Positions 11,371 through 46,403 of a stretch of DNA of 64,000 nucleotides are shown here, one piece after another. The DNA comes from Mixta tenebrionis (GTDB lineage: Bacteria > Pseudomonadota > Gammaproteobacteria > Enterobacterales > Enterobacteriaceae). The DNA is taken from positions 1 to 64,000 of the forward strand of contig NZ_VHQI01000010.1 in the NCBI RefSeq assembly GCF_006517625.1, read 5' to 3'. Positions within the stretch are counted from its first letter, which is position 1. Each line of letters opens with the position of its first letter. Under the pieces are notes generated by a model. It saw only the letters and a program-made list of their open reading frames with translations, was not told where the DNA came from and made no database searches. A program made the position numbers and the translations under genes.

Positions 11371-11377
11371 CGAAAAA

Positions 11378-12724: not shown

Positions 12725-12733
12725 GGAACAGAT

Positions 12734-14029: not shown

Positions 14030-14071
14030 CGGCGGTTTTGCGCCGGCTCAGAGCTTGATAAGGCATTGATT

Positions 14072-16222
14072 ATGACTGATAAAAAATATCGTATTGGCAT
14101 CGATGTCGGCGGCACCTTTACCGATGCCGCGGTTATCGATAACGACAGCTTTGAACTGATAGCCAAAAAGAAAATTCCAACGACTCATCATCATCCTGAC
14201 GGCGTGGCGCATGGGATTATCACCATTATTCACCAGGTGCTGGCGGAGAATAACATTGCGCCGCAGGAGGTCAGCTTTATTGCGCACGGTACCACCCAGG
14301 CGACCAACGCCCTGCTGGAAGGCGATGTGGCAAAGGTTGGAATTATCGCCATGGGCAGCGGCCTGGAAGGTAAAAGCGTGCGTAAAGAGGCCTGCATTGC
14401 CGACATCCCGTTGGCCGATGGAAAGTTCCTGCATACCTTTAATACCTTTCTCGATACGCGGCAGCTCAGCGACGCGGCGATACGTGCGGCAATCGAAGAG
14501 CTGTGTCGGCAGGGGGCGGAGGTGATTGTGGCGTCAGAAGCTTATAGCGTTGACGATCCCACCAACGAGCTGCGCGTGATGGCGGTGGCTGCCGACATGG
14601 GCATTTCCGCTACCGCCGGACATGAAATCACCCAGCTGTACGGCCTGAAAACCCGTACCCGTACCGCCGTCGTCAATGCCAGCCTGATCCCGCGTATGCT
14701 GGAAACCGCCAACATGACCGAACAGGCGATCAAGGCGGCGGGGATCGCCTCGCAGCTGATGATCATGCGATGCGATGGCGGCGTGATGAGCATTGACGAG
14801 GTGCGTAAACGCCCGATTCTGACCATGCTCTCCGGGCTGGCCGCCGGCGTCGCCGGAGCGTTGATGTATGAGAAAATTTCTGACGGTATCTTCTTTGAGG
14901 TGGGCGGCACCAGTGTAGATATCTCAGTGATTAAAAATGGCAAGGTAATGATTCAGAACGCGCAGGTGGGCGGCCATCGAACCTATCTGCGTTCGCTGGA
15001 CGTGCGTACTCTGGCGGTGGCGGGCGGCAGCATGATCATGGTGGAAAACAATAAAATCGCTATGACCGGGCCGCGCAGCGCGCATATCGCCGGCTGCGAA
15101 TATGAATGTTTTGTCGCTGAATCGGCCTTCGGCGAGCGGCCGACGCTCGATTTTATCAGTCCGCGTCCGGGCGATCCGCCAACCTATGCGGTGGTGAACG
15201 GCGCGCATGGCAGGCGCTATGCGTTAACGCTGGCCGGCGCCGCCAACCTGCTGGGCTACGTGCCGGCGGATGACTACGCTGCCGGCAATCTTGCCAGCGC
15301 CCGTATCGCCTGGCAGCTGCTCGGCGCGTATTTGGGCATCAGCGCCGAACAGGCGGCGCGACAGGCGCTGGATATCGCCATTGATAAAGTGATGGCGATA
15401 GTTAATGAAATGATTAGCGAATACCGGCTGGAGCCGCACTTTATTACGCTGGTCGGCGGCGGCGGCAGCGGCTGCGTACTGGTGCCGGCGATGGCGGAAA
15501 AAGCCGCCATGAAATATAAAAACGCGCGCAACGCCCCCTATATTTCCACTATCGGCGTGGCGATGGCGATGGTGCGCGAGATGATTGAAAAAAGCGTGGT
15601 TAATCCCGGCGAAAGCGATATTAAAAAGATCCGTGCGGAAATTATCGAGCGCATTGTGCGTTCCGGAGCGAACGAAGAGACCGTCGATATTAATATCGAG
15701 ATCGATAAGCAGAAAAACGTGCTGCGCGCTATTGCTACCGGCGCGACGGAATTACGCAAAAAAGAGAGCATTAGTGAAACGCTGCCGCTGGCCCAGCTGC
15801 GGCAGATCGCCGCCGAATCCATCAACCTTAAGGCGGAGGCGGTTACGCCGGCCTGCCAGACAGGGCGCTGGCATCTTTTTGAGGGCATCAGCGAACAGAA
15901 ACGCTTTTGGGGCCTGTTTAGCCGGAAAAAACGCCGTCTGAGCATGCTGGACCGGGGCGGCGTTGTACGCCTGAAAAAGGAGAATGCCAACTGGCTGCTC
16001 TGTACGCGTGCCGAGATAGCCTCGCTTTTTATCGATTTTCTCGATGACAATACCCGTTATTCAGAAGCCAACGCCGCCATTCCCAAAACCTTTTTATTCT
16101 GGAAAGAGAAGATGCTGGACCTGAGCGGTACGCAAACCAAAGAGCAAATGCTGTCGATTATCGATATGGAGCTGGACAGCGTCGATCGGCAACAGCCGGT
16201 TATTACCGTGGCGTGGCAGTAG
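14072..16222 (+). CDS. Hydantoinase/oxoprolinase (HyuA)-type protein
   Basis: A 716-aa HyuA-family protein. The N-terminal phosphate-binding motif IGIDVGGTFTDAAVI, the segment FIAHGTTQATNALLEG, and the second ATP-fold motif FFEVGGTSVDISVI identify it. Members open cyclic amides or lactams (hydantoin, 5-oxoproline) or act as carboxylases, usually with ATP and often with a HyuB partner. No HyuB gene is present here. The last 120 residues or so (from about 600) are lysine-rich and look unlike usual HyuA C termini. The ATG at 14072 follows AAGG by 8 nt, preferred over the TTG at 14066. The HExxH gene follows after 8 nt. Confidence 0.85.
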   Translation: MTDKKYRIGIDVGGTFTDAAVIDNDSFELIAKKKIPTTHHHPDGVAHGIITIIHQVLAENNIAPQEVSFIAHGTTQATNALLEGDVAKVGIIAMGSGLEGKSVRKEACIADIPLADGKFLHTFNTFLDTRQLSDAAIRAAIEELCRQGAEVIVASEAYSVDDPTNELRVMAVAADMGISATAGHEITQLYGLKTRTRTAVVNASLIPRMLETANMTEQAIKAAGIASQLMIMRCDGGVMSIDEVRKRPILTMLSGLAAGVAGALMYEKISDGIFFEVGGTSVDISVIKNGKVMIQNAQVGGHRTYLRSLDVRTLAVAGGSMIMVENNKIAMTGPRSAHIAGCEYECFVAESAFGERPTLDFISPRPGDPPTYAVVNGAHGRRYALTLAGAANLLGYVPADDYAAGNLASARIAWQLLGAYLGISAEQAARQALDIAIDKVMAIVNEMISEYRLEPHFITLVGGGGSGCVLVPAMAEKAAMKYKNARNAPYISTIGVAMAMVREMIEKSVVNPGESDIKKIRAEIIERIVRSGANEETVDINIEIDKQKNVLRAIATGATELRKKESISETLPLAQLRQIAAESINLKAEAVTPACQTGRWHLFEGISEQKRFWGLFSRKKRRLSMLDRGGVVRLKKENANWLLCTRAEIASLFIDFLDDNTRYSEANAAIPKTFLFWKEKMLDLSGTQTKEQMLSIIDMELDSVDRQQPVITVAWQ

Positions 16223-16230
16223 GACGGCAG

Positions 16231-16905
16231 ATGGAACGGAATGAGTTTAATCACATGCTGGCGTGGTTGGATCTGCGCAACGATCTGGTATTCAATAAAA
16301 TTCCGCCGGCTAAGTACCGCTATTACCTTGACAGCGCGCTGGCATTCGGCGAGCAGGCTGCGGCCCGGCTTAACGGACAGGATATTCGCCAGCTTTGCGC
16401 GCAACATCAGATTGCCATAGAGATTAAGAAAGATGATGGCCTGTTCTTTACCGTGCAGTTTCGCGCGCAGTTTGAATACAGCGAGAAGCTATCGCGGCGT
16501 AAAATCACGCTATATCAGCCCTCGCTGGAGAGCCTGCTCGCCGGCTGCGCCAGCGTCGGGCTGGTAATGTCGCTGGACACTATTATTGATATTCATCTGG
16601 CGCATGAATTTTTCCATTTTCTTGAATATCAGCAGCGGCCCGTCAGCGCCTCGCTGGAAAAAGTATGCAATGTCGCCATCGGCCCGTTTCGACGCTACTC
16701 CACCGTTGGCGCGACTTCGGAAATCGCGGCGCATCGTTTTTGTCAGCGGTTTCATCAGCTCGATTATTATCCATCGTACTATGATTTTTTATGGCTGGCG
16801 CACAGCGGGAAACAGACTCAGTGGGAGAATGAGCGGTGCTTTGCCGAAGCGTGGCAGGAAATGCTGGCTTTCGGCCTGACGCCTCAGGCGGATGCGTGTT
16901 TGTGA
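16231..16905 (+). CDS. HExxH-motif protein, putative minigluzincin
   Basis: A 224-aa protein that I do not recognise as a named family. It contains a zinc-protease motif, HLAHEFFHF (H125, E126, H129), and a downstream acidic segment SEIAAHRFCQRF with E164. That spacing resembles small gluzincins and the ImmA/IrrE (DUF955) fold, where HExxH is followed by an E..A..F helix. No signal peptide or membrane helix is visible, so it is probably cytoplasmic. The start at 16231 follows AGGA. It lies 8 nt after the HyuA gene and is probably translationally coupled, so it may process or partner that protein. Peptidase activity is inference. Confidence 0.7.
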   Translation: MERNEFNHMLAWLDLRNDLVFNKIPPAKYRYYLDSALAFGEQAAARLNGQDIRQLCAQHQIAIEIKKDDGLFFTVQFRAQFEYSEKLSRRKITLYQPSLESLLAGCASVGLVMSLDTIIDIHLAHEFFHFLEYQQRPVSASLEKVCNVAIGPFRRYSTVGATSEIAAHRFCQRFHQLDYYPSYYDFLWLAHSGKQTQWENERCFAEAWQEMLAFGLTPQADACL

Positions 16906-17491: not shown

Positions 17492-17529
17492 CCGGAACAG
17501 CTATCAGGCGATGCCTGAGGCTATTCCGG
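17492..17529. terminator. Stem-loop between convergent yjeI and usher genes
   Basis: A long hairpin: CCGGAA/TTCCGG outside, AGC/GCT in the middle and TCAGGC/GCCTGA inside, with a GAT loop. It overlaps the last codons of the usher gene. There is no T run in either direction, so termination would be weak or Rho-assisted; it may mainly block antisense read-through. Confidence 0.5.
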
Positions 17530-19707
17530 CTTATCCTCTTCATCTTCATCTTCATCTTCCTCTGCCGCCTTCGCCTCATCTTTAACTTTTTTCTTCTCGG
17601 CGGGCAGGAACATCGCCCTGACGATAGCGCCTTTTGTCGGCACGACGCCGCGCTCCGTCATCGGCAGCGTCAGATCGTCAGGCAGCTGCCAGCTGTCCAG
17701 CGTCAGACGGTTTACGCGCCACGGCACCAGATAACCGACCAGCGCTTCGCCCTTCGCGTTGGTTTTCACGCCAAACTGCTGATAGTTGCCGATGCCGGGC
17801 GTATCCGGCACCACGATCAGCGCCATGGTATCGCTCACTTCCTGACCAAGGGTAATGCCGTTGCGGTGAACCAGCACCGATCCGCGCATGTCGATGCGCC
17901 GCTCACGCGTGCCGCCTTCGCGATAAGCGCTGACGGTGGCTTCACCGGCGTCATACTGATAGCCAAGCGAGGCGTTATATTGATTGTCAGCATGAGGAGT
18001 ATGTACCGCCGAAAGATCGTAACGCAGGCTGTAATCCGATAACGCCGTGCCGCTCAGGCCGATCTCTTCGCTGGGATCGGAGTGGCTGGCGAGATTATGG
18101 CTGTAGCTCAGGCTGGGCGAGCCGCCGCCGGGGATGTCGGGCAGCGCCAGGCTGAGCGTAACGCCAAGAGTGGTTTCACTACGGCTGCTCTGTTCGCGCG
18201 ACCGCCCCAGCCAGACGCTGATATCCCAGTCTCCCACGTTTGCCTGATAGCTCAGGGAAATATAGCGGCGGTGACCGGGAGTTTTACGCCAGTTCTGTTG
18301 GGTGTAATGCAGGCTCAGACTCTGTTCTTCGTTCAGATAGTGGTTGATCCAATATTCCTGGGTCAGCAGGCGGTTTTTATTCTCATCAAAAAGCCAGTCG
18401 TACTCTGCGGAAGGCTGGGTAACCTTCTCTTCCAGCGAGCGAAACTGCTGCCCGGCTGGGTAATAGCGCAGCAGGGCGCTAAAGTTGGTTCCGCTGTTAA
18501 AAAAGGTTCTGGCGTAGCGCAGGCGCCAGACGCTGCCGCGATAATCTTCGGCATATGAGGTATAGCGCGCCCAGGTGGTATCCATAGAGAACGAACCCAG
18601 CGCGTTCAGATGCAGGCCGGCGCCGGCCAGATAGCTGTCATATTGATCGGCGTGCTGCGCACCGGTATAGAGCGTCAGAGCGGGCGTAATGCCGCGCGCG
18701 AGGCTGGCCTGCAAAAATGTCGGTTTAGCGAGATCGCTGCCGCGCCAGGGACGATAGCGCCCGGCCACCAGCTCATAGCTGTAGTTGCCTTCATGCACCA
18801 GCGCGGGCATCGCCGACCACGGCAAATAGCGGCTCGATTCGCTGCCGTCGCTCTCTTTTACCGTCAGCTGCAGCGTACCGTTATTGTCCGGCGGATAAAA
18901 ATCACGGATGACGAAGGGGCCGGGCGGTACGTGTATACGGTAAACCGTCATGCCGTTCTGGCTGATGGTTACCTCGGCATGGCTTCTGGCGTAGCCGTTA
19001 ATCCACGGCGAGAAGGGGCGCCAGCTGTCAGGAAACATCGCTTCGTCCGTGACCAGCGTGATGCCGCGAAACGGCACGGCGTCGAACAGCGTATCCGTCG
19101 TTTCGCCGTCTCCGGCCAGCAGCTGCGAGCGCCAGCTGTTGATGCTGCGGTAAAGATTAGCCTGGCGACTATAAATGCCGTGCCTGCCTTCAGCATCGCG
19201 CCATAACGTATTCTGATAGCGCAGGCGCCACGGGCCATAATTAATGCCGTTATCGAATTCGACGTTATAGCTGTCGCCGGTCTCCGCATAGGGGCTGTCG
19301 CTCTGATAATTGGTGTAGCTGGCGCGATAGCTGGTAAAGAAGGCGTTAATGCCCTCATCCCAGCGGCTGGTATTGACGCCGTTTTGCCGGGCGTTAATAA
19401 ATTTATCAGGGATAAGAATAGTGAGCAGCCCCGCGTCGGGCCGATACCAGGATTGAATGCGCAGCAGTTCGAGGCTCGCCTGGGTCAGGCAGCCTTGCGC
19501 GCTCCAGCTATCTTCCGGTAGCTGTTTTAACTTTACGCCCCATTCTTCCAGCAAATCCCGTTGCAGGCAGGGTTCCTCGCCGTCCATCTCAAGGAATATT
19601 TGGCCTTTGTAATTGTTATTTACGATGACCCAGAGCTGTTGGCCGGCATTGGCTGAATGGCAGTAAGCAAAAATTAATATTAAAAAAGTCAGTGACCAAA
19701 ATTTCAT
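17521..19707 (-). CDS. Orphan fimbrial outer-membrane usher, C-terminally short
   Basis: An FimD/PapC-type usher of 728 aa; ordinary ushers are roughly 800-870. A signal peptide ends at HSANAG, followed by an N-terminal chaperone-binding-like domain with two cysteines (EEPCLQ, AQGCLT). A 24-strand-type barrel follows with the plug segment HVPPGPFVIRDFYPPDNNG. The protein stops just after KGAIVRAMF, where other ushers continue into two C-terminal domains. Instead it ends in a lysine- then Asp/Glu-rich tail. No chaperone, pilin or adhesin gene is nearby. It may be a specialised secretion barrel, or a decaying remnant whose frame is still open. Confidence 0.85.
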   Translation of the reverse strand: MKFWSLTFLILIFAYCHSANAGQQLWVIVNNNYKGQIFLEMDGEEPCLQRDLLEEWGVKLKQLPEDSWSAQGCLTQASLELLRIQSWYRPDAGLLTILIPDKFINARQNGVNTSRWDEGINAFFTSYRASYTNYQSDSPYAETGDSYNVEFDNGINYGPWRLRYQNTLWRDAEGRHGIYSRQANLYRSINSWRSQLLAGDGETTDTLFDAVPFRGITLVTDEAMFPDSWRPFSPWINGYARSHAEVTISQNGMTVYRIHVPPGPFVIRDFYPPDNNGTLQLTVKESDGSESSRYLPWSAMPALVHEGNYSYELVAGRYRPWRGSDLAKPTFLQASLARGITPALTLYTGAQHADQYDSYLAGAGLHLNALGSFSMDTTWARYTSYAEDYRGSVWRLRYARTFFNSGTNFSALLRYYPAGQQFRSLEEKVTQPSAEYDWLFDENKNRLLTQEYWINHYLNEEQSLSLHYTQQNWRKTPGHRRYISLSYQANVGDWDISVWLGRSREQSSRSETTLGVTLSLALPDIPGGGSPSLSYSHNLASHSDPSEEIGLSGTALSDYSLRYDLSAVHTPHADNQYNASLGYQYDAGEATVSAYREGGTRERRIDMRGSVLVHRNGITLGQEVSDTMALIVVPDTPGIGNYQQFGVKTNAKGEALVGYLVPWRVNRLTLDSWQLPDDLTLPMTERGVVPTKGAIVRAMFLPAEKKKVKDEAKAAEEDEDEDEEDKPE

Positions 19708-19727
19708 TAGTGGCAGAAAGCTAAGCC

Positions 19728-19757
19728 ATAAAAAACGGAAGCGAGAACGCTTCCGTT
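19728..19757 (-). terminator. Terminator of the DUF1090 gene
   Basis: On the minus strand AACGGAAGCG and CGCTTCCGTT pair as a perfect 10-bp stem with a 4-nt loop, followed by a T run. It is 16 nt past the stop and separates this gene from the usher. Confidence 0.9.
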
Positions 19758-19773
19758 TGCTTAAGGGGAATAA

Positions 19774-20202
19774 TTATTTTTGCAGAGCAGCCAGGTCAGC
19801 ACGAGCCTGGTTCAGCTTCTGCTGGATTTCCTGCAGATCTGCCTGTTTTTCGCTCAGCTTACGCTGATATTTAGCGATTTTGTCTTTCTTGCCGCGAGCC
19901 TGGGCTTCACGCAGGTCAGCCTGTACTTCACGGATGTCGCCTTGTTTCTCAGCCAGTTTTTTCTCCAGCTTGGCAACTTCTTTCTGTGCTTTGGCAATGA
20001 CGCTGGCGCTGGTGCAATGAGCTTTAACTTCAGCCAGCGCATGTTTCAGGCTGTTCACCTTCATGGTGTTGCCGTAGTGCTGCGCGATGCTGATTTCTCT
20101 TTCCAGCGCTGCACGTTTAGTGGCGCAATCTTCAACGCCTGCATGAGCCATGTTAAATACGCCAGCCATCATTACCGCTGCAAGAACTGTTAACTTTTTC
20201 AT
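19774..20202 (-). CDS. DUF1090 (YqjC-like) periplasmic coiled-coil protein
   Basis: A 142-aa protein with a signal peptide (MKKLTVLAAVMMAG...AHAG). Two cysteines (EDCATKRAAL and KAHCTS) probably form a disulfide. A long charged heptad region follows (KLEKKLAEKQ, KLSEKQADLQEIQQ), which should fold as a coiled coil. The pattern fits DUF1090, which includes E. coli YqjC. Function is unknown. AAGGAG precedes the ATG and its own terminator follows, so it is a single-gene unit. Confidence 0.88.
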   Translation of the reverse strand: MKKLTVLAAVMMAGVFNMAHAGVEDCATKRAALEREISIAQHYGNTMKVNSLKHALAEVKAHCTSASVIAKAQKEVAKLEKKLAEKQGDIREVQADLREAQARGKKDKIAKYQRKLSEKQADLQEIQQKLNQARADLAALQK

Positions 20203-20306
20203 CGTAACTCCTTATACGAAAACCATTTATTTAAACGCTTGCGGACTTATCCGTAAGTGGCCTCAGGTTAAAGGTTAGGCCCAACTATGGCAATACAGGC
20301 GCGTCC

Positions 20307-23300
20307 TCACCCTGCTGTAGGAAGGGATGACAAGTCTGTAGTCCCTGCATAAATAAGCTGAAGATGCCGGGAAAGATGCACTATTTGCTGTTCGAACTGC
20401 TGCAGTTTTTCCGGGTCAGGCTGCTTCTCCAGCTGCTGACAGGCCTCGATTAGCTCGTCCGCGCCAAGCAGCAACAGGCCGCCGCGTAATTTATGCAATA
20501 CGCTTTTTAGATCGCGATTATGCTGTCGCCCCTCATGAATATCGGCCAGGGCTTCATCGAACATTTCCAGCTGCAGCTGCAGGAAATGGCGGCGCTTAAG
20601 CGGCGTATTCAGGCCGGGCGGGAATTTCCACGCGATATTGCAGGGCGGAGTCTCGGTAACCGGCAGGGTGCTGAGTGATTTTTCCAGCGTCTGTAGCGTC
20701 AGCGGCTTGAACAGGCAATCATTCATTCCGGCGTTCAGACAGGCTTCACGCACCGACTGCTGTTTGTTGGCCGTAGCGCCCCAGATAATCAGGTCGGGAT
20801 GATCGCGCCGAATGGCATGGGTCAGGGCGAAGCCGTCCATCACCGGCATATTGCAGTCGGTAATCACCACGTCGGGCAGCTGGGCGGATAGCAGGGAGAG
20901 CGCCTGCTGGCCGTCGGCGGCGCCGATCGCCTCATGGCCTAAATAGTGCAGCTGCTGGATGAGGACGTGGCGGCTGGCGGCGTGATCGTCCACCACCAGA
21001 ATGCGCCGTGCGGTAGTCGGCGCCGCCTGAGCGGCGGCCACCACCGCCGGCATCGGCTGAGGCGTCATTCTCGGCAGACGCAGGCGAATTGTGACTTCCG
21101 TGCCCATGCCCGGCTGGCTGTCCAGCGTCAGCTCGCCCGCCATCATGTTAATCAGCGTGCGGCAGATGTAGAGGCCAAGTCCGCTGCCCTGCTGGCTCTG
21201 CTGGTTATCGCCCTGCTCAAAAGGTTTGAACAGGCGCGCCTGGGTGGCGGCGTCGATACCCGGCCCGCTGTCCTGAATGGTCAACACCAGATTAAGCGCC
21301 GAGGCCTCCTCTTTTTCCAGCAGGGCCTGGAAGATAATTCGCCCCTGCACGGTGAACTTGACCGCGTTGCCGAGAATATTAATCAGGATTTGCTTGAACC
21401 GTACCGGATCGACCAGCACATCGCCGCTGATATCCGCATCGATCTCGCAGGTAAACAGCAGCGATTTCTGCCGCGCCAGGCCATCCATCATGGTCACCAC
21501 TGACTCAATCAGCGGACGAATCGAGGCGCGTTCCGGTCGCAGCACCAGCCTTTCCGTTTCGATGCGCGCAACGTCAATAATATCGCCTACCAGCATCAGC
21601 AGCGATTCTGCGGTGTCGTAGGCGATGTGCAGCGAGTCGCGATCGCCGGGGTTAAGCTGCTTACGCCGCAGCAGCAGTTCCAGAATGCCGATAATGGCGC
21701 TGAGCGGCGTGCGTAGCTCATGGCTGATAGAGGCGAGGAAAGTGGTTTTTACCCGGCTGGCTTTTTCCGCCGAATGTTTGGCCTGCTGCAGCTGCTTTAA
21801 CGTTTGCAGGCTTTCCCGCATATCCTGCCAGCCGCCGACATAGCCGTAGCCCAGAGCGTTGGTTTGCAGCAGCGTTTGCCAGAAAGCGATCCCTTCCTTA
21901 ACGCGGTCGCCGTCATAAAGCCCGAATTCGGCCATCAGCGCCTGTACGTTCTGCCCGCGATGTTCGTTTACGTCGATATTCAGGGCTTCGGCAAAAGAGC
22001 GGTTTGCGCTGGTCAGCCGTCCGTTAAGATCGGTGATAAACAGCGGGACGGGAATCGCATCCAGCAGGTGCTGCTGGGCGGGCTGACGCCGCTGACGATG
22101 ACGCAGCAGCAGAATAAGCAGCGTCAGGATCATCCCGGCAGCGACGACCGCCAGCCCGATCAGCGCCTGGGAAGGGGCGGACTGTATCTCGCTCTGTCGA
22201 TCGTTGGGCATATTGGCGTTGCTGTGCCATTTGCGCACCGTTAGCTGTAAGTCCTCCGGGGCGATATTCAGCAGGGCCTTATCGAGAATAGTCGCCAGCG
22301 GATAGTTGCTGGCGGAAACCGCCATAGTGAAGCGCGCCGGATCGATCTCCAGGCTTTTAATAATGCGCAGTTTGTCGGCATACAGCCGGGAAATATAAAA
22401 GTTTGCGTTGATTAACGGCAGGATCATCACGTCCGCCTTGCCTTTCACTACCGCTTCCAGCCCTTCCGTCAGGGTATCGGCCTGCACAATGCGCATTTTC
22501 TGCAATTCCGGCTCGGCGCTCAGATCGACGGCGTTGCCTTTCAGCAGCATCGCCCGATGCGTGGCGGGCAGCGAAAGCGAAGGATGGCGTCCTACCATTA
22601 CCCATGAATTAAACAGCCAGGTGCGGGTGGTTAAGAGGCTGGCATGGCTGGCGCTGTCCAGGTTAAGGCTGGCCACCATATCGCTATGGCCGGATTTTAC
22701 CGCGGTGATAATCTCCTCCAGATTATCCTTCGGCTGAATAACGAACTTCAGCCCGGTACGCAGGCCGATCGCCTTTAAGATGTCGGTGGTGACGCCGTGC
22801 AGTTTCTTTTTGCTGTCATAGATGCTCAGCGGCGCGCTGTCGCGCAGCACCGAAACGCGGATTTCCGGATTATCTTCGATCCATTTCTGCTCAAGCGAAG
22901 TGAAATAGAGATGGCGCTCGCTGAGAATCGGCATAAAGCCGCCGTTCCAGCGCCGCATAATATCTTCATTAATATTGGCCGGGATGGCGGAAAGTACCTG
23001 ATTAATGATCGCTATCAGCTGTTCATTATCGGGCCGTGCGGCAAACGAGAATCCCTTTGACTGATTATTGCGTAGCCGGCGAATATTTAAATCGCTCAGG
23101 TTAGATTCATTAATTAAATATTGCGTAGCGGTCGCATCGCCAATAAAGATATCTATCTGATGAAACGCTAATGCCTCCAGCGCATGGCGCGCCGAAATAA
23201 AGGGGATCAGCTGCGCCTGCGGCCAGCGCTGTATAAAGGCTTCCGGGTTAGGATAGGCGGCGTCGATAGCCAGCCGGACCCCCTCTTCAGGCAGCGGCCA

Positions 23301-23768
23301 GGCGTTAAAATTAACCACCTCCGCCGGAGTATTGTTGGTGTAGGGCTTACTCAGCAGGAAGCCGGCGTCATACGCCTCATCGCTGGCCCAGGCGATAAGA
23401 TCCGCCTCGCCGTTTTCCAGCGCTTCAAAGGCCGCTTTCTTATCGGCGTACTGCTGGATTTCCAGCTTAATATTAAGGTTAGAGGCCAGCAGGCCCAGAT
23501 AATCGGCGGTAATGCCAACATAATCATAGCGTCCGGCGTTCATAAAATAGGGCGGAACATTAGGCGCCCAGCTGGCGATCGTCAGATGATTATGCTTGCG
23601 CAGCCAGCGCCACTGTTCGCTGCTTAAGGTCAGATCCGACAGCATCGCCTGGCTGTGCGCCAGCAGCTGTAGCGAATTGACGGGCTTCTCCGGCGGCGGC
23701 GCGGCCGGGCCGGTAGCAGAGAAAGTAATTAACCCTATTAATATAACTATACGTAGAATTAGCGACAT
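20307..23768 (-). CDS. EvgS/BvgS-type hybrid sensor histidine kinase
   Basis: An unorthodox sensor kinase of 1153 aa. In order it has a signal peptide, two periplasmic solute-binding (Venus flytrap) domains at about 50-275 and 290-525, one transmembrane helix near 545-567 (LIGLAVVAAGMILTLLILLL), and a PAS domain (FITDLNGRLTSANRSF). Then come HisKA with SISHELRTPLSAIIG, an HATPase (GSGLGLYI), a receiver (ITDCNMPVMDGF) and a C-terminal HPt with LHKLRGGLLLLGA. The phosphorelay His-Asp-His residues all appear present. Its start overlaps the stop of the response-regulator gene, so the two are coupled. The signal is unknown; related EvgS responds to mild acid and redox state. Confidence 0.92.
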   Translation of the reverse strand: MSLILRIVILIGLITFSATGPAAPPPEKPVNSLQLLAHSQAMLSDLTLSSEQWRWLRKHNHLTIASWAPNVPPYFMNAGRYDYVGITADYLGLLASNLNIKLEIQQYADKKAAFEALENGEADLIAWASDEAYDAGFLLSKPYTNNTPAEVVNFNAWPLPEEGVRLAIDAAYPNPEAFIQRWPQAQLIPFISARHALEALAFHQIDIFIGDATATQYLINESNLSDLNIRRLRNNQSKGFSFAARPDNEQLIAIINQVLSAIPANINEDIMRRWNGGFMPILSERHLYFTSLEQKWIEDNPEIRVSVLRDSAPLSIYDSKKKLHGVTTDILKAIGLRTGLKFVIQPKDNLEEIITAVKSGHSDMVASLNLDSASHASLLTTRTWLFNSWVMVGRHPSLSLPATHRAMLLKGNAVDLSAEPELQKMRIVQADTLTEGLEAVVKGKADVMILPLINANFYISRLYADKLRIIKSLEIDPARFTMAVSASNYPLATILDKALLNIAPEDLQLTVRKWHSNANMPNDRQSEIQSAPSQALIGLAVVAAGMILTLLILLLRHRQRRQPAQQHLLDAIPVPLFITDLNGRLTSANRSFAEALNIDVNEHRGQNVQALMAEFGLYDGDRVKEGIAFWQTLLQTNALGYGYVGGWQDMRESLQTLKQLQQAKHSAEKASRVKTTFLASISHELRTPLSAIIGILELLLRRKQLNPGDRDSLHIAYDTAESLLMLVGDIIDVARIETERLVLRPERASIRPLIESVVTMMDGLARQKSLLFTCEIDADISGDVLVDPVRFKQILINILGNAVKFTVQGRIIFQALLEKEEASALNLVLTIQDSGPGIDAATQARLFKPFEQGDNQQSQQGSGLGLYICRTLINMMAGELTLDSQPGMGTEVTIRLRLPRMTPQPMPAVVAAAQAAPTTARRILVVDDHAASRHVLIQQLHYLGHEAIGAADGQQALSLLSAQLPDVVITDCNMPVMDGFALTHAIRRDHPDLIIWGATANKQQSVREACLNAGMNDCLFKPLTLQTLEKSLSTLPVTETPPCNIAWKFPPGLNTPLKRRHFLQLQLEMFDEALADIHEGRQHNRDLKSVLHKLRGGLLLLGADELIEACQQLEKQPDPEKLQQFEQQIVHLSRHLQLIYAGTTDLSSLPTAG

Positions 23769-24394
23769 TATTTTATATTTTTAAATTGTTGGAGTAACTC
23801 CGCCAGCGATTCCGTTCCGCTTTTTTCCAGTAGCCGCGCTTTATAAGTGCTAATGGTTTTATTACTTAACTGGAGTAATTCGCCAATTTCTTTATTCGAT
23901 TTCCCTTCCGCCAGATAGCGTAAAACGGTAAGTTCGCGATCGGACATGCGCGCCAGCAGGCGCGAGCTTTCCGCCTCCGCCGATGCGCAGGGCGCGTTTT
24001 CCGCGATAAAACTGCCGGAGGGAAAACAGCTGTAGCCATCCAACAGCAGCCGTACCACCGCGCTGATGGCGGTAAGCAGATGCTGTTTGCTGAGAAAACC
24101 GTCCGCACCGGCCTTCAGGCTGCGCGGCGCGTACACTTCCGCCGGCAGCCCGGTAAGGATTAATACCCGAATAGTCGGGCGATAATGTTTGATTCGCGCC
24201 AGTAAATCAAGACCATCCAACTTTAACAGAGAAATATCAAGTATAATTAAGTCAGGCTTAAGTTCACGAATAAGAAACATGACCTTCCCGCCGTCGGTCG
24301 TGGTGGTTACGGTAAGGTCTTCTTCTACTTCCAGTGAAGCCTTAAGCGCAAAACAAATAGCGGGATGATCGTCAACGATAAGAATAGAAGGCAT
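23768..24394 (-). CDS. EvgA-type response regulator (NarL/FixJ family)
   Basis: A 208-aa response regulator. The receiver has the acidic pair in LIVDDHP and the phospho-acceptor in LIILDISLLKLDG (about Asp52). The C-terminal LuxR-type helix-turn-helix includes SNKEIGELLQLSNKTISTY. It is the first gene of a two-gene unit and overlaps the sensor kinase gene by one base. An extended -10 (TGC-TATAAT, 24409-24417 on the minus strand) lies only 15 nt before the ATG. With no clear Shine-Dalgarno, the leader may be very short or another promoter is used. The regulated genes are unknown. Confidence 0.9.
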   Translation of the reverse strand: MPSILIVDDHPAICFALKASLEVEEDLTVTTTTDGGKVMFLIRELKPDLIILDISLLKLDGLDLLARIKHYRPTIRVLILTGLPAEVYAPRSLKAGADGFLSKQHLLTAISAVVRLLLDGYSCFPSGSFIAENAPCASAEAESSRLLARMSDRELTVLRYLAEGKSNKEIGELLQLSNKTISTYKARLLEKSGTESLAELLQQFKNIK

Positions 24395-28581: not shown

Positions 28582-28712
28582 AGTGCTTTCCTGATAAGTT
28601 CTAACGGCTTAAGTATAGGTGGTGAAATGTAGTCTGCGCAGCGGACGAATTAAAAAGCGGAAAAAATGCGCAAGGCCTTGTCGCGCCAGGGTTCAGGCGA
28701 ATGTAAACGTAC

Positions 28713-28739
28713 TAAAGCCAGCGCGCGCTGCGCCGATAA
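28713..28739 (+). promoter_or_regulatory. Sigma-28 (FliA) promoter of the flagellin gene
   Basis: TAAAGCCA (-35, 28713-28720) and GCCGATAA (-10, 28732-28739) are separated by exactly 11 nt. The FliA consensus is TAAAGTTT-N11-GCCGATAA, so the -10 is perfect and the -35 matches at 5 of 8. The predicted start lies about 35 nt before the flagellin ATG. Confidence 0.85.
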
Positions 28740-28779
28740 TCCAGCTACTCAGATAACAGTCAGTGAAGAATTTCTTATC

Positions 28780-30231
28780 ATGGCGAGCATAAACAGTAAT
28801 CTGTTATCAGCCAACGTGCTGAAAAATCAGGCGAAGGATGCTTCTTCCCTTAGCCAGACGCTTACGCGCCTTTCTTCCGGTTTGCGCATTAACAGCGCGA
28901 AAGATGACGCCGCCGGACAGGCGATATCGAACCGCATGACCGCCAATATCGGGGCCGACAGCGTCATTGCGCGCGGTCTTGATGATGGCGTCAGCCTGTC
29001 GGAAACCGCCGACGGCGGCCTGGATACTATCTCTCAGCTGCTGATCCGCGCTAAATCGCTGGCGATACGCTCGGTGAACGATGCGTTATCGGACAGCGAT
29101 CGGCAAAGTTTACAGAACGAATTTCAACAAATCAGCGGCACTATCGATCAGATTGCCAGCAACACCGAAATCTTCGGTAAATATCCGCTGGCGCCGGCGA
29201 TAGCCGATCTGCCGTTAAAGCTGGGCGACGTTCCGCCGGCAACCAGCAAATTTCCCACGCCGGGCGCCAGCTACGGCTTTAACTCAGGCATCGTGTCGCT
29301 GGCCTATATTCCGGCGGGCGCGACCAACGTAATGATGAATATCGATTCCTTCGGTTTCGATGATGATATCCAGATTTTTACGCGTGACGGCAAGCATCTG
29401 GTGGGTACGCCGCTGAACGGCAGCGATCCTGATTACACCTGGGTCAGCAAGGGCGTTACCAGTACGGCGCAGGCCAACGGCAGCATTATTACTGAAGCGA
29501 ACGGTTTTCTGCCGGGCGCCAGCTATGATGACGCGCTGCTGAAGCAGGGCGGCGGCGCCTGGGATCTCAACGGCAGCGCCACGCAAAACTATCACGGCAT
29601 GACCATCGCCTACAGCGGAGACGGCGACCGCTATGAGGATGCCAGCAGCGGCGGGTTTAATAACGGCCAGGTGGCCAGCACCCATACCCAGGAGCGCGTG
29701 CAGATCAATAACGTTACTGAAGATCTGGTGATTATGGTGGTGGGAAACGGCTCTTTTTCGGCGCGTATGACCTGGGATAATATGCCGACGCCTACTTACT
29801 CTCCGGCCAAACCGGAAAAGGTGAGCAGCGCAACGCAAATTGTCACCAGCGCTAACTTTGGCGACGCGTTACAGACTACCACTATCGCGCCGACGCCTGC
29901 CGACAGCGCCTCGCTGGGGCTGGCGACTACCCGTCTCAATCCTAAAGATGAGGCGGAAAAGGCGCTGGGCGCGCTGGATATGGCGCTGCAAACCGTCAGC
30001 GGCTATCGCGGCGACTATGGCGCAACCATCAACAGCCTGACGTCAGCTAAAGCTTCGCTGACGCAGCAGACGCTGGCTGCTACGGCGGCGCGCAGCCGAA
30101 TTATGGATGCGGATTATGCGCAGGAAGCCTCGGAAATGACCAGGGCGCAGATTATTCAGCAGGCCAGCAATGCGGTGCTGGTACAGGCGAACCAGCAGCC
30201 GCAGATGATGCTTTCTTTGCTGAAAGGCTAA
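28780..30231 (+). CDS. Orphan flagellin with an unusual central domain
   Basis: A flagellin of 483 aa. The N-terminal D0/D1 helices (about 1-135, with LSSGLRINSAKDDAAGQAIS) and C-terminal D1/D0 helices (about 385-483, with AARSRIMDADYAQEASEMTR) are intact, so it could assemble into a filament. The middle (about 165-335) is not a usual D2/D3. It is Gly- and Asp-rich and predicted beta, with segments VSLAYIPAGATNVMMNID and ERVQINNVTEDLVIMVVGNG that resemble beta-sandwich carbohydrate- or surface-binding modules. No cysteine is present. The start is the ATG at 28780, which gives the conserved MASINSN. A sigma-28 promoter lies upstream. No other flagellar genes are nearby. Confidence 0.9.
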   Translation: MASINSNLLSANVLKNQAKDASSLSQTLTRLSSGLRINSAKDDAAGQAISNRMTANIGADSVIARGLDDGVSLSETADGGLDTISQLLIRAKSLAIRSVNDALSDSDRQSLQNEFQQISGTIDQIASNTEIFGKYPLAPAIADLPLKLGDVPPATSKFPTPGASYGFNSGIVSLAYIPAGATNVMMNIDSFGFDDDIQIFTRDGKHLVGTPLNGSDPDYTWVSKGVTSTAQANGSIITEANGFLPGASYDDALLKQGGGAWDLNGSATQNYHGMTIAYSGDGDRYEDASSGGFNNGQVASTHTQERVQINNVTEDLVIMVVGNGSFSARMTWDNMPTPTYSPAKPEKVSSATQIVTSANFGDALQTTTIAPTPADSASLGLATTRLNPKDEAEKALGALDMALQTVSGYRGDYGATINSLTSAKASLTQQTLAATAARSRIMDADYAQEASEMTRAQIIQQASNAVLVQANQQPQMMLSLLKG

Positions 30232-40986: not shown

Positions 40987-41062
<76 letters not shown>

Positions 41063-41089
41063 GAATTTATGCAGTGCCCGAAACACCAA

Positions 41090-41165
<76 letters not shown>

Positions 41166-41192
41166 GAATTTATGCAGTGCCCGAAACACCAA

Positions 41193-41268
<76 letters not shown>

Positions 41269-41295
41269 GAATTTATGCAGTGCCCGAAACACCAA

Positions 41296-41371
<76 letters not shown>

Positions 41372-41398
41372 GAATTTATGCAGTGCCCGAAACACCAA

Positions 41399-41474
<76 letters not shown>

Positions 41475-41501
41475 GAATTTATGCAGTGCCCGAAACACCA
41501 A

Positions 41502-41577
<76 letters not shown>

Positions 41578-41604
41578 GAATTTACGCAGTACCCGAAACA
41601 CCAA

Positions 41605-41680
<76 letters not shown>

Positions 41681-41918
41681 GAATGTCCTTCTTATTTTGA
41701 TTTCTCCCCCCTCTTTTTCCGGTATCGCCGTTTGTTATCCCCTTCGCTTTTTCCTGTTAGCTGAACCGTTATTTGCCTTGTCTGTTTTGCGCTACAGCAG
41801 ATTTATTTCCTCCTGGCGATGGTATGCAGCAAGCGCGACTGGCGCGGTTGCTTCCCGGCAGTGCGAGAGCTTTAGTCTGTTATGCTGCCAGCGAGCGTTT
41901 TTTTATCCCGTCCCGTTC

Positions 41919-41992
41919 TTGCCTTGTCTCCGACAGAGAAGGGGAACGTTATCCAAAAGTCAGCAGCGGAAAATGATGCAGCGCACGCCTCC
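41919..41992 (+). repeat. Imperfect direct repeat, copy 1
   Basis: A 74-bp unit starting TTGCCTTGTCTCCGACAGAG and ending GCAGCGCACGCCTCC. It is repeated 79 bp downstream with only a few substitutions. The 79-bp period is not a multiple of three, so it is not a protein repeat. Confidence 0.85.
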
Positions 41993-41997
41993 CGTGT

Positions 41998-42071
41998 TTG
42001 CCTTGCCTCCGACAAAGAAGGGGAACGCTATCCAAAAGTCAGTAAGGGAAAATGATGCAGCGCACGCCTCC
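41998..42071 (+). repeat. Imperfect direct repeat, copy 2
   Basis: Second copy of the 74-bp unit at 41919, starting TTGCCTTGCCTCCGACAAAG. It lies between the tRNA array and the reductase cluster. Confidence 0.85.
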
Positions 42072-42110: not shown

Positions 42111-42142
42111 GGTTGCCGGAGCGCGCGTCGGCTCCGGCAACC
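42111..42142 (-). terminator. Stem-loop after the selenoprotein gene
   Basis: GGTTGCCGGAGC and GCTCCGGCAACC form a perfect 12-bp stem with an 8-nt loop, 9 nt past the stop of the GrdB-like gene. On the minus strand it is followed by ATCCGTTTTC, a modest T run. Confidence 0.7.
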
Positions 42143-42151: not shown

Positions 42152-43465
42152 TTAAACCCGCACTTTAAACACCGTCTGTTCCTCAATATCGCTGGTCAGC
42201 GCATCCAGCGCTACGCCAACGCGGTGATAGCGCAGCTTCCACTGCGTTTCCGCCGATGTCGCCGGATCGCCCAGCGGATATGGGATGGAAATGGTTGGCA
42301 CAATACGGTTAGCGCCAACGGTTTCTGCAACCGGGATCAGATTACACATCTGCACTACCGGAAAACCGGCTTTTTCAATTTCTTTAACCATCGTTGCGCC
42401 GCAACGAGTGCAGGTGCCTCAGGTAGAGGTAAGTATTACGGCATCAACGTTATGGTTGCGTAGATGGACGACCATCTCCTTCGCCATGCGTTCCGCTTCC
42501 GCCTCCGTGGTGCCGGTGCCGACGGTGGTATAGAAATGGCTGTCGATAGCGCCGATGCGTCCCTCTTTTTCATAGGCTCGCAGCGCATCCAGCGGTACGA
42601 CGACGTCCGGATCGGCGTCCGCCGCCGCGGGATCGTAACCGGCATGAATGGTTTTATAAACGCCAGACTGCAGATTATCGATGGCGGATATATCATACAT
42701 GCCCCAGCGTGTAGCAGAGGCTGACTGGATACGATCGGGATTATCGACCGGGACAATGCCGCCGCTGGTGACCAGTGCGATTTTGGCTTTAGAGAGATCG
42801 GTAATCGCCGGCGCGATGGGCACCCGGCGGTCCGGGGGAATAGGCAGCTCCGTTTGATAGGGTTGACCATGCGTTTTCTTCAGCAGCATGTCGATAACCC
42901 GCTCCGCGGCTGGTTTTAAGTCAGGGTTATAGACCTGATGACGGATTCCGCGCGAATAAAAACCTTCCTCCGCTGCCGGACCCGGTTTTTCGCCAGCGAG
43001 TAGCTTATCGGCAAACCTGGCCATTGTCGCCGCGTCATCGCGCATTTTAGCCGCGCTTTTCCCGCCCGGAAAAATATAGAGTTCCTTTCTGAACATCTCC
43101 ACGCCGGGGTTTTCTTCGTGCATGGAAGTTACCGCGGGCACGTTGAATTTTTCCTGTACGGCTTTACAGATAGTGCCGCAGGCCGAGCCGTAACGTCCCG
43201 CCTGGAACGCCGGGCCGGCGAGAAAAATATCAAACTGTACGCCTTCAAGAAACTGCATAATCTCTGCAACGGCGGCGTCCGTACTGGACCCCATATAGTT
43301 ATCGCCGCATACGATGGTATGGGCGATCCCGGCATTTTTCAGCGCCGCCTGCAGCGCCTTTGCCGAGCCGTGAGCGCCGTCATGGAACAACGGCCTCTGA
43401 TCCGCCTCGGATTCTCCGCCTATGCCGGCGAAGTACTGGTTAATATAAACAACTGCTTTTTTCAT
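42152..43465 (-). CDS. GrdB-type reductase selenoprotein (component B, Sec subunit)
   Basis: A selenoprotein of 437 aa if the UGA at 42421-42419 is read as selenocysteine (residue 349). The two halves are in one frame: VDAVILTST-U-GTCTRCGATMVKEIE. This matches the selenocysteine site of glycine/sarcosine/betaine reductase GrdB, GrdF and GrdH, which are about 436 aa. Segments TSGGIVPVDNPDRIQSASA and TVGANRIVP are also family hallmarks. In these enzymes the Sec subunit works with the pyruvoyl subunit to cleave the C-N bond of the substrate. AAGGAG precedes the ATG. It lies 12 nt after the GrdE-like gene. A SECIS-like hairpin follows the UGA. Decoding needs SelABCD encoded elsewhere. Confidence 0.92.
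42391..42421 (-). promoter_or_regulatory. UGA selenocysteine codon and bacterial SECIS-like hairpin
   Basis: In the mRNA, the UGA is followed 13 nt later by CGUUGC-GGC-GCAACG, a perfect stem that gains one more U-A pair, with a 3-nt loop whose first base is G. The loop is 19-21 nt after the UGA. The distance and apical G fit the SelB-binding element of E. coli fdhF. Confidence 0.8.
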
Positions 43466-43477: not shown

Positions 43478-44806
43478 TTAAAAATCGAGCATCGTTTTAC
43501 GCGACCAGCCGATTACCTGATCGCCGCAGAACATGCTGTTGTTCTCGATGATGATGGAGCCATCCGGGCGCACGGAAGGGCCCAGTTTTTCATCGCCTTC
43601 CCAGCCGCCGGAAAGGCCGTCGCGCCCAATCGACGCCAGTTCGCCAATAACTTCATCCATCGGCGGCAGCTCCAGCAGCTGGGATACGTTGCCGCATGAG
43701 ACAATGGCGTTGGCCTTAGCGCTGAGCGCTACCAGCGGCTGCGAGCGCCCGTCGCGCCCGGTACATTCATTGGTAATGCCGACGGTTTTCACCCCAGCAT
43801 CTTCCAGCGCGTTAAAGCAGGCGATGAAATCGGCGTCCGGATTACCGTAGCCTTCCTCTGCCAGCACGGCGCTGTCGGCTCCCAGGCTGCGGGCCATTTG
43901 GGCGACAAACAGCGCGGCGCGCTGTTTTTGCTCCAGCGCGACATTCAGATTGGACATGATGACGCCAAGGAAATTAATCGTCTTACCATGTTGCCCATAC
44001 AGCTCTTTAATCATTGGGCAGTTCTGCATATCGTAGGTTGACCATTTCGATGAGCACGGCATAAAGGAGCCGCCGATAACGGCGCCGTTCAGAATTTCAT
44101 TGGGGTGCATAAAGGTGGGGAGCGTGCGGTTAGCATCCCAGCCGTACAGCAGATCGTTGTAGCCCAGTTCCTCCATCTGGGATTGAATTTGCATAACGTA
44201 AACCACGCCGGGAAGCTGCATAACCCCGGCGTCGCGTCGGCTAAGCGGCGGCAGCTCGAAGGTCTCAACGCTCTCCGGCGTCAGGGCGCGTACGGCTTCG
44301 CCGAGATATTCCGCCAGCTTGTGGGCAGCCCAGCGGATAGCGTGATTCTTTTTCTGCTGCTCGCGTTGTTCAAACAGCTCGTCGGTATCGGCCACCAGGC
44401 AGATATTAATTAAGCCGGAATAATAGGTGAGGTTGGCTCCCTCGCCGGACATATCAATTACGCCGTCGCCGAAGCTGCCCCAGTGTTTACCGACGGCCAG
44501 CACGCTGCAATTTTTTAGCGCGTGCGTGACGCCGCCCTCGCAGGAAACCAGATCGCTGGAGGTGACGCCCGGAAACAGAGGGCTGCCATCCAGTTTACAG
44601 CGCGGCTCAATCGCCTCTTTCACCGGGACGATACGTTTACTTTCTCCGGGACGGGCGATAATAATATCGGCAGCAGTAATATGTTCATCTTCGCAAATAA
44701 GCGCCAGCGCCTCCTCTTTATTGATGCTCAAAATGCCATCGATAAAAGCTGTCCTGGCGCCAAATACGACATCTCTGACATGGAAATTACCTATCTCTAA
44801 TTTCAT
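43478..44806 (-). CDS. GrdE-type reductase pyruvoyl proprotein (component B)
   Basis: A 442-aa homologue of GrdE/GrdG/GrdI, the proprotein of reductase component B. In the family, self-cleavage at a cysteine gives two chains and a pyruvoyl group that forms a Schiff base with the amine substrate. The likely site here is Cys251 in GGSFMPCSSKWSTY. Family segments MIKELYGQHGKTINFLGVIM, AEEGYGNPDADF, TGRDGRSQPLVALS and QLLELPPMDEVIGELASIG are clear. The ATG at 44806 follows GAGGTG; the frame extends 33 codons upstream without support. Neighbours are a BCCT transporter upstream and the GrdB-like selenoprotein downstream. Genes for GrdA and component C are not in the window. Confidence 0.9.
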   Translation of the reverse strand: MKLEIGNFHVRDVVFGARTAFIDGILSINKEEALALICEDEHITAADIIIARPGESKRIVPVKEAIEPRCKLDGSPLFPGVTSSDLVSCEGGVTHALKNCSVLAVGKHWGSFGDGVIDMSGEGANLTYYSGLINICLVADTDELFEQREQQKKNHAIRWAAHKLAEYLGEAVRALTPESVETFELPPLSRRDAGVMQLPGVVYVMQIQSQMEELGYNDLLYGWDANRTLPTFMHPNEILNGAVIGGSFMPCSSKWSTYDMQNCPMIKELYGQHGKTINFLGVIMSNLNVALEQKQRAALFVAQMARSLGADSAVLAEEGYGNPDADFIACFNALEDAGVKTVGITNECTGRDGRSQPLVALSAKANAIVSCGNVSQLLELPPMDEVIGELASIGRDGLSGGWEGDEKLGPSVRPDGSIIIENNSMFCGDQVIGWSRKTMLDF

Positions 44807-44834
44807 CTCTGCACCTCTTCGTTTATTAAGCGGA

Positions 44835-46403
44835 TTACGTAACGGGTTGATCTGATATTTTCTTCTGTGGGTGTTTTTCAGCGAGGCTTTCCTTGCGCGC
44901 GGCACGGGTTTCTTCCCGTAATCCTTTTACCAGAGACGCCATACTCAGGAGTAAAATAAAGGCGAAAGGAAACGCCACGGAAATCGAGGCCGTCTTCAGC
45001 ATATTCAGCCCGCTTTTCCCGCCGGCAATCATTAATGCCAGCGCCAGCGCCGCCTGAATCAGCGCCCACATCACTTTGCGCGAGGTCTTCGGATTCAGAT
45101 CGCCGTTACTGGAAAACATGCCGAGTACGAAAGTGGCCGAGTCCGCCGAACTGAGGAAAAAGGTGATCAGGAGCGCTACCACCAACACCGAGATAGCGGT
45201 ACTAAACGGGAAATGCTGCAGTACGATATAGATTGAACGGCTGACATCTACCGAGGTGGCGGCGATAGCCTGATCCAGCCCAAGCCCCATGGCGCTCATG
45301 CCGAAGATGGAGAACCAGCTGATGCCTGCCAGCGTCGGCGCCAGCAATACGCCCAGCACGAACTGACGGATGGTGCGCCCCCGCGATATGCGGGCGATAA
45401 AAGTGCCGACAAAAGGCGCCCAGGCGATCCACCATGCCCAGTAAAAGATCGTCCAGTCGCCATACCATCGCGCCTCTTGTTCGGAGAAAGCTCCGACCGA
45501 CAGGCTATCGAACACATAGTGAGAGATATAATTGCCGACGCCCTCTACCAGCCCGTTCATTATGGCTATCCGGGGACCGACGAAGAACATAAACAGCATA
45601 ATTGCCGCAGACATACACAGGTTAGCGCTGGAAATGCGCTTCATGCCCTTATCCAGACCGGCGACAATGGACATTAATAAAATCGCGGTAATAGAAAAGA
45701 CAATCAGCATTAATAGCGTATTGGTCTGTTCAAGGCCGAAGACGGCGTTTAATCCGCTGCTAATCTGGTAGGTGCCGAGGCCAAACGACGTCGCCACGCC
45801 GGCGACGGTGGCGAAGATTGCCAGAATATCCACGCACTTGCCGATAATGCCGCCTGCCAGCTTTTCGCCAAGCAGTGGAATCAGTACGCTGCTGATCAGG
45901 CCGGGTTTGTCTTTGCGGAACTGGATATAAGCCAGCCCCAATGCCATGACGCAATAGCCTGACCAGGGCTGCAGCCCCCAGTGGAGAAAGGACTTGCGCA
46001 ATGCAAAAGCCATCGCCTCTGGCGAACCGGGTACGGCGCCGGTAGGGTGGGCGTAATGGCTGAGCGGCTCTGCCACGCTATAAAACAGCAGGCCGATGCC
46101 TTTCCCTGCGCTGAATAACATGGCGAACCAGGCGAGCGTGCTGTATGCCGGCTTCTCACCATCTTTGCCCAGCACGATATTTCCATATTTGCTACAGCAT
46201 ATCCAGATGGAAAATAGTACGAAGGTCGCCATGCAAAGAATATAGAACCAGGCGAATTTCGTTGTCAGAAAGCTGAATACCGTATCGCCGGCGTTTTTAA
46301 AACTGCTGGCGCCCATTACTCCCCATGCGACCACGCAGGCCACGACGATCAGGGAGACGTAAAATACCGTTTTGTCGTTATTTGTCTTATCGGTGCCATT
46401 CAT
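44835..46403 (-). CDS. BCCT-family betaine/carnitine/choline transporter
   Basis: A 522-aa transporter of quaternary amines with 12 transmembrane helices. The BCCT signature is present: FSAGKGIGLLFYSVAEPLSHY in helix 3, and the tryptophan-rich segment FYWAWWIAWAPFVG of helix 8 followed by FIARISRGRT. The GMGIG motif of Na+-coupled members is replaced by GKGIG. A Lys there resembles the CaiT-type antiporters, which do not use sodium, though CaiT itself has Met. It is 28 nt upstream of the GrdE-like gene on the same strand. The substrate is likely the one reduced by that enzyme, for example betaine or a related N-methylated amine (inference). Confidence 0.93.
   Translation of the reverse strand: MNGTDKTNNDKTVFYVSLIVVACVVAWGVMGASSFKNAGDTVFSFLTTKFAWFYILCMATFVLFSIWICCSKYGNIVLGKDGEKPAYSTLAWFAMLFSAGKGIGLLFYSVAEPLSHYAHPTGAVPGSPEAMAFALRKSFLHWGLQPWSGYCVMALGLAYIQFRKDKPGLISSVLIPLLGEKLAGGIIGKCVDILAIFATVAGVATSFGLGTYQISSGLNAVFGLEQTNTLLMLIVFSITAILLMSIVAGLDKGMKRISSANLCMSAAIMLFMFFVGPRIAIMNGLVEGVGNYISHYVFDSLSVGAFSEQEARWYGDWTIFYWAWWIAWAPFVGTFIARISRGRTIRQFVLGVLLAPTLAGISWFSIFGMSAMGLGLDQAIAATSVDVSRSIYIVLQHFPFSTAISVLVVALLITFFLSSADSATFVLGMFSSNGDLNPKTSRKVMWALIQAALALALMIAGGKSGLNMLKTASISVAFPFAFILLLSMASLVKGLREETRAARKESLAEKHPQKKISDQPVT

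Follow-up and report, generated by a model that had tools for sequence, protein, structure and literature searches.

The question raised by this locus is whether a reading frame interrupted by a UGA codon, in a window of 64,000 nucleotides (the whole stretch of DNA that was analysed) from an enterobacterial genome, is a broken gene or a selenoprotein gene and, in the latter case, which factors would read the codon. The original prediction described two frames in the same phase, separated only by one TGA and nine sense codons, which when joined would give a GrdB-type protein of 437 residues with selenocysteine (Sec) at residue 349. These frames were indeed found on the minus strand at 42419-43465 (348 codons, ended by the TGA) and 42152-42391 (79 codons); the gap consists of the TGA and the nine sense codons (GTCTRCGAT), and both the length of the joined frame and the position of U were as described. 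With the UGA read as Cys, the product matched the NCBIfam family NF040795 (betaine_GrdH) at 810.2 bits for a cut-off of 775, and the alignment covers residues 3-437 of GrdH and model positions 1-435 of 435. Such a full-length match over the cut-off goes far beyond what a chance join of two frames would give. The product also matches PF07355, and the Sec codon sits at the family position in a UxxCxxC motif (UGTCTRC). The other NCBIfam types stayed under their cut-offs (sarcosine GrdF, 547.8 vs 800; glycine GrdB, 507.2 vs 602.2). The earlier assignment to a selenoprotein of the GrdB kind stands, with the subtype being GrdH (betaine) rather than glycine GrdB. The host was assigned to the Enterobacteriaceae by the neighbouring genes, which in their best matches show 78-79% identity to Klebsiella and E. 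coli.

Table 1. Coordinates of the features of the grdH locus within the window.
Feature	Position	Strand	Remarks
grdH	42152-43465	(-)	ATG at 43465, TAA ending 42152; 437 aa with Sec as residue 349
In-frame UGA, predicted Sec codon 349 of grdH	42419-42421	(-)	TGA in 28/28 homologues
SECIS hairpin, Rfam SECIS_4 (RF01990)	42381-42418	(-)	63.3 bits vs gathering score 38; begins at first base past UGA
Partner component-B subunit, probably grdI	43478-44806	(-)	Longest ORF 43478-44905; likely ATG 44806; PF09338
BCCT-family transporter, probably betaine uptake	44835-46403	(-)	PF02028, 579.4 bits
Terminator-like hairpin, 12 pairs	42111-42142	(-)	9 nt past TAA of joined grdH frame
Seven tandem tRNA-Gly(GCC)	40987-41680	(+)	Border the grdH locus on its 3' side

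An ordinary gene split by a stop mutation or a sequencing error, that is, a pseudogene or two genes, would present itself in much the same way, and standard ORF calling does yield two ORFs here, as had been anticipated for an automatic pipeline; ORF callers that stop at UGA split genes like grdH. Against this stands the alignment with homologues, in which U aligns with U: the UGA lies at the family Sec column throughout a comparison set of 28 full-length GrdB/GrdH genes (our own, those of genomes G356, G152 and G413, that of Photobacterium DA100, and 23 of 24 further loci, locus L046 being left out because its contig ends ahead of the motif), and the SECIS hairpin follows the codon immediately. 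Moreover, the downstream part is well conserved, the identity to GrdH of Clostridium carboxidivorans being 65% over the 348 residues before the UGA and 86% over the 88 residues after it, and a terminator-like hairpin lies past the final TAA. Both other GrdB-bearing Enterobacteriaceae also have a UGA followed by SECIS_4. A homologue in a close relative that decays behind an ordinary stop, the observation that would have favored a broken gene, was not seen, and the four congeners sampled gave no GRDB match. In view of the SECIS_4 match and the conservation of the UGA in homologues, we rejected the reading as a pseudogene or two genes, to which we leave practically no probability; as judged from its sequence, 42152-43465 on the minus strand is a selenoprotein gene.

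The codons past the UGA were compared in the same set. Arg354 is encoded by CGT and Cys355 by TGC in every one of the 28 genes; among the 71 other invariant columns that are neither Met nor Trp, none has a single codon at a share of at least 90%. The nine invariant columns in residues 350-363 have a mean top-codon share of 0.73, vs 0.50 elsewhere (Mann-Whitney P 0.0005, without correction for shared ancestry). Codons 350-353 themselves vary across the 28 genes, and by folding energy alone the grdH hairpin is not exceptional (z -0.29). In a structure of GrdH predicted from 17 sequences (mean pLDDT 81.7, pTM 0.56), residue 349 is placed between a strand at 342-346 and a helix at 352-365, with pLDDT below 50 at residues 350-352. 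A fold search of the PDB with this model returned weak matches alone (TM about 0.2), and a sequence search of the PDB returned no relative of GrdH.

Two genes lie upstream of grdH on its strand. The partner subunit matched PF09338 at 582.5 bits, from ORF residue 34, and its best NCBIfam match was GrdG (343.9, under the cut-off of 780). The BCCT transporter passed TIGR00842 (475.4; cut-off 407.55) and scored 594.3 with betaine_BCCT NF047988, under the cut-off of 650. As these substrate-specific cut-offs were not passed, it is in part the context that suggests the names grdI and betaine transporter. The scan for hairpins gave 10 sites vs 8.0 in shuffles and as a whole is thus not above chance, so that the terminator-like hairpin is proposed from its stem, the longest found, and from its place. 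Upstream of the BCCT gene, the best FNR sites had 2 mismatches and are not convincing; one FNR site with 1 mismatch was seen upstream of the island of G356 that is described below. The tRNA-Gly(GCC) array, with repeat units spanning 40987-41684, has a tandem period of 103 bp with copies 99% alike, and two 79-bp direct repeats, 90% alike, occupy 41911-42071 between the array and the grdH locus.

Which factors would read the codon depends on the Sec machinery of the genome (4.66 Mb in 73 contigs). The original prediction had made its case dependent on selA, selB, selC and selD, and all four are present. In the native set, selA adjoins selB and lies with selC on contig C56, and selD is on C23; one selA and one selD exceed the family cut-offs in the whole genome. 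A further contig, C34, carries on one strand trxB (split by a frameshift), trxA, grdA, grdC, grdD, a second selC (selC2) and a second selB (selB2), in a stretch flanked by two tRNA-Asn genes. NF040748, NF040746 and NF040747 are all over their cut-offs on C34, which places GrdA, GrdC and GrdD in the same genome as grdH; grdA has one in-frame TGA, and 2,993 bases separate it from selC2. The selC2-selB2 pair and these three grd genes lie on another contig than grdH; the pair, while present in the same genome, does not belong to the grdH operon. No scar of a lost grdE-grdB-grdX segment was found between grdD and selC2. Because of its frameshift, the island trxB (locus L012 on C34, 4980-6265) appears as two ORFs, where the G356 homologue has a single ORF of 434 aa.

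The second tRNA-Sec gene scores 68.7 bits with RF01852 (gathering score 47; native selC, 79.3). Its product has a UCA anticodon, G73, a G1-C72 pair and CCA, and in the predicted fold the acceptor and T stems add up to 6+6 = 12 bp vs 8+5 = 13 in selC1; the canonical 8+5 (13-bp) arrangement was thus not recovered in selC2. SelB2 matched TIGR00475 at 299.6 (cut-off 242.25) over 4-371. Among the Pfam wing domains, SelB1 matches wing_1_3, wing_2, WH_2nd and wing_3, and SelB2 matches SelB-wing_3 alone (36.6 bits). SelB2 is 29% identical to SelB1 of the same genome (the GTPase domain reaching 44% and the C-terminal half 17%), and 78%, 58%, 39% and 38% identical to its counterparts in G152, G356, Photobacterium DA100 and G413, respectively. 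Likewise, tRNA-Sec2 is closer to selC from the four other islands (82-95% identity) than to tRNA-Sec1 (74%), selC of genome G298 being left out of these identities.

The UGAs of fdhF and grdH are followed by different SECIS classes. One of 11 molybdopterin-domain matches has an internal stop, the TGA of fdhF, in a count that a UGA outside the matched domain would escape. This fdhF scored 79.9 bits with SECIS_2, plus a sub-threshold match to SECIS_3, and had no match to SECIS_4 at E up to 10; grdH, for its part, had no match to SECIS_2 (RF01988, the E. coli-type fdh SECIS) at E up to 10. The alignments show a three-base loop in the model matched by grdH, and a four-base loop and unpaired stem bases in that matched by fdhF. 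The stretch after the UGA of grdA (L012 4400-4560) matched no Rfam SECIS family, which counts against a common target of SelB2 in grdA and grdH. Letters conserved at 17 sites after the grdA UGA were considered as a possible SECIS and rejected, since they spell the conserved protein sequence AGAMD.

The best reading, which we hold to be probable, is that the locus encodes GrdH, the Sec-containing B subunit of a betaine reductase, and that a dedicated SelB2/tRNA-Sec2 pair, working beside the native system, reads the UGA codons of grdH and grdA. What the sequence shows directly is the genes, the in-frame UGA, SECIS elements of two classes, and the co-occurrence of GRDB with the SelB2 type; that Sec is inserted, that SelB1 and SelB2 divide the work and that the enzyme is active are inferences. 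By analogy with the named families, the BCCT transporter would import betaine, GrdI/GrdH with U349 would cleave it to trimethylamine, and the acetyl fragment would pass to selenoprotein GrdA, from which GrdC/GrdD would form acetyl phosphate and hence ATP, with thioredoxin regenerating the reduced enzyme. SelB2 would bind RNA downstream of the grdH and grdA UGAs and deliver Sec-tRNA-Sec2 there; native SelB1 and tRNA-Sec1 would serve fdhF, whose SECIS is of the other class, and the single SelA and single SelD would serve both decoding sets. The lone SelA must in this case also act on a tRNA with a 12-bp stem, which counts against a dedicated pair. Further points that weigh against the best reading are the placement of selC2-selB2 and grdH on separate contigs, the frameshift in the island trxB, the unexceptional folding energy of the grdH hairpin and the substrate-specific cut-offs missed by the partner subunit and the transporter.

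The grdH UGA might instead be decoded by native SelA, SelB and SelC, with selC2-selB2 being redundant passengers of a transferred island. The native genes, selD included, are all present, grdH lies apart from selC2-selB2, and a passage of PMC8659212 states that selC mutants of E. coli can be complemented with tRNA-Sec genes from other organisms, so that selC2 may not be needed. However, the SECIS_4 of grdH is unlike the SECIS_2 of the fdhF in the same genome, and intact selB2 and selC2 are kept in all three GRDB-bearing Enterobacteriaceae (of 392 genomes), two of which lack selA2. Moreover, in the work of Gursinsky et al. in 2008, expression of a clostridial GrdA in E. coli reportedly needed clostridial factors. 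We therefore consider decoding by the native factors unlikely. Much less credit still is due to the idea that the second tRNA and SelB insert Cys or Ser at the UGA, in the manner of the deltaproteobacterial selC* tRNA-Cys with selB*. An additional selC with an additional selB behind it, and no selA next to them in our genome or in G152, does resemble the layout described for selC*/selB* of Syntrophobacterales and Desulfobacterales in passages of PMC7609411, where the selC* tRNAs carry Cys. Yet tRNA-Sec2 passes RF01852 and has the G73, UCA and CCA given above, and it has G1-C72 where A1-U72 is described, in the same passages, as a feature of the UCA type with its own CysRS. Relatives of selC2-selB2 also adjoin selA in G356, DA100 and G413, and selD in G413, and selA and selD are present in our genome.

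The distribution of these genes bears on the dedicated SelB2/tRNA-Sec2 pair as well. The searched genomes were one per species, many of them drafts, and the named collections may omit records near our genome. GRDB was found in 3 of 392 Enterobacteriaceae genomes, from three genera (ours, G152 and G356), and an order-level count found it in 2 of 394 genomes (ours and G413). A profile of the C-terminal half of SelB2 had matches in 37 of the 392 Enterobacteriaceae, with our genome, G152 and G356 at 395-398 bits and the remaining 34 at 28.7 bits or less, native-SelB-like (native SelB of G356, 26.5). The high scores of the three genomes arise by construction, since the profile holds their rows; the informative point is that no other genome scored high. 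GRDB and the SelB2 type occur in the same three of the 392 genomes and in none besides, and these are a common island type, not independent events. At E 1e-9 or better, two tRNA-Sec genes were found in each of G356 and G152 and one in G298. Three of the four congeners sampled (G130, G230 and G358) gave neither a tRNA-Sec at E 1e-9 nor a selA above the cut-off, so that the native Sec trait appears to be patchily distributed across our genus.

The same selC-selB type is found near SECIS_4 grdB genes in Photobacterium DA100, G413, G356 and G152. The DA100 island has selC, selA and selB with selD and a grd set that includes two grdA copies, and G413 has selC, selA, selB and selD beside its grd set. 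In G356 the order is trxB-trxA-grdA-grdC-grdD-grdE-grdB-grdX-selC-selA-selB, with an amino-acid carrier gene nearby; in G152, grdB-grdX-selC-selB reaches the end of a contig, and the sole selA over the cut-off lies elsewhere in the genome. Our C34 has selC-selB, and grdE, grdB and grdX are absent from the stretch read. Across the five islands, selC and selB are always there and selD and selA are variably missing (for selD, the comparison covers our genome, DA100 and G413). As a comparison of five genomes, this series fits a loss of selD and selA, which the host could supply, with SelB and its tRNA kept.

Component B itself may have come from another source. In a tree of the 28 proteins, our GrdH falls among the GrdH of Bacillota, Fusobacteriota, Mycoplasmatota and others, and a split with 100/100 support sets it apart from a group containing the GrdBs of the four gammaproteobacteria, so that the betaine-specific subunits and the C34 core may differ in origin. 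A search for close matches in E. coli, among 5,426 genomes, gave none, either by megablast with the betaine locus and the islands of G356 and G152 or by blastn with the C-terminal half of SelB2. In plasmids, relatives of GrdH occurred in 6 records, none from Enterobacteriaceae, and a single one of the 440 records matched by SelB2 covered more than 80% of it (Photobacterium DA100, at 39.7%). No SelB was found at 1e-10 in the flanks of the 24 GrdB/GrdH loci. A tRNA-Sec lies about 2.4 kb upstream of grdH in Clostridium carboxidivorans (L027 7471-7567), and none was seen in the other 23 loci.

Taken jointly, these data could be read as two orthogonal Sec codes with a common SelA and SelD, SelB1/tRNA-Sec1 addressing SECIS_2 (fdhF) and SelB2/tRNA-Sec2 addressing a Grd SECIS (grdH and grdA), with selC-selB as the smallest unit by which such a second code can be transferred and with an exchange of component B, in which the glycine GrdEB is missing from the island and the betaine GrdIH was gained elsewhere. 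We give this wider reading about an even chance. The genome offers a natural case of two Sec-decoding sets that appear to share selA and selD. If confirmed, this case would widen the view, put forward in passages of PMC1794560, that Sec decoding moves only as a selA, selB, selC cluster, and the private nature of a SelB-SECIS pair could then be probed in a laboratory strain. Betaine reductase, an ATP-yielding enzyme best known from strict anaerobes, would now be placed in a relative of E. coli, and grdH is a recognised trimethylamine-forming gene in the passages of PMC6162913 that concern it.

Parts of this picture are already known, namely the Photobacterium transfer and the presence of two tRNA-Sec in one enterobacterial genome. 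According to passages of Romero 2005 (PMC1273633) and Zhang 2006 (PMC1794560), the Sec trait was transferred along with glycine reductase in events that involved Photobacterium profundum, and the latter proposes that Sec transfer needs clustered selA, selB and selC. The glycine reductase and Sec operon of Photobacterium (PMC1273633), as read in pDA100, resembles ours in the trxB-trxA-grdA-grdC-grdD order and in the type of selC and SelB; it differs in that selA, selD and a glycine GrdB are part of the set, whereas ours has selC-selB only, a betaine GrdH and a complete native Sec system beside it. PMC5330540 describes a class of bacterial tRNA-Sec with 12 bp in its section 10 and reports that P. 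profundum 3TCK has two sel operons, both complete. In Table 3 of that article, the entry for Shigella flexneri 1235-66 gives two tRNA-Sec along with four selenoproteins; the passages seen name neither a second selB nor a Grd protein for this strain, which may carry the same island as our genome. Clostridial GrdH (NF040795) is like ours over the full-length sequence and in the UGA column, UxxCxxC, SECIS_4-like nucleotides and an adjoining component-B partner. Compared with GrdH of Clostridia and relatives, ours has a host among the Enterobacteriaceae and its GrdA, GrdC and GrdD on another contig, and it groups with the GrdH clade, away from the GrdBs of gammaproteobacteria. Among the papers listed by the literature search, none reports a second SelB/tRNA-Sec pair with GrdH beside a native set. 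Passages of PMC6162913 describe a grdH screen of 107,042 genomes that kept 346 candidates, among which an enterobacterial grdH may be found. In the passages concerned, PMC6139387 deals with the Salmonella proteome and gives one spot the name 'predicted glycine/sarcosine/betaine reductase', and PMC7264382 is a stool metatranscriptome.

Elsewhere in the window, four proteins are encoded in a row at 11285-16905: an FAD-dependent oxidoreductase, a permease-like one with a weak match, one of the hydantoinase A type and one of 230 aa without any NCBIfam or Pfam match. The region 17521-24394 has a fimbrial usher and, further along, an EvgS-like hybrid histidine kinase and a FimZ/EvgA-like regulator. 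A lone flagellin gene (521 aa) lies at 28666-30231, near blc and fumarate reductase genes.
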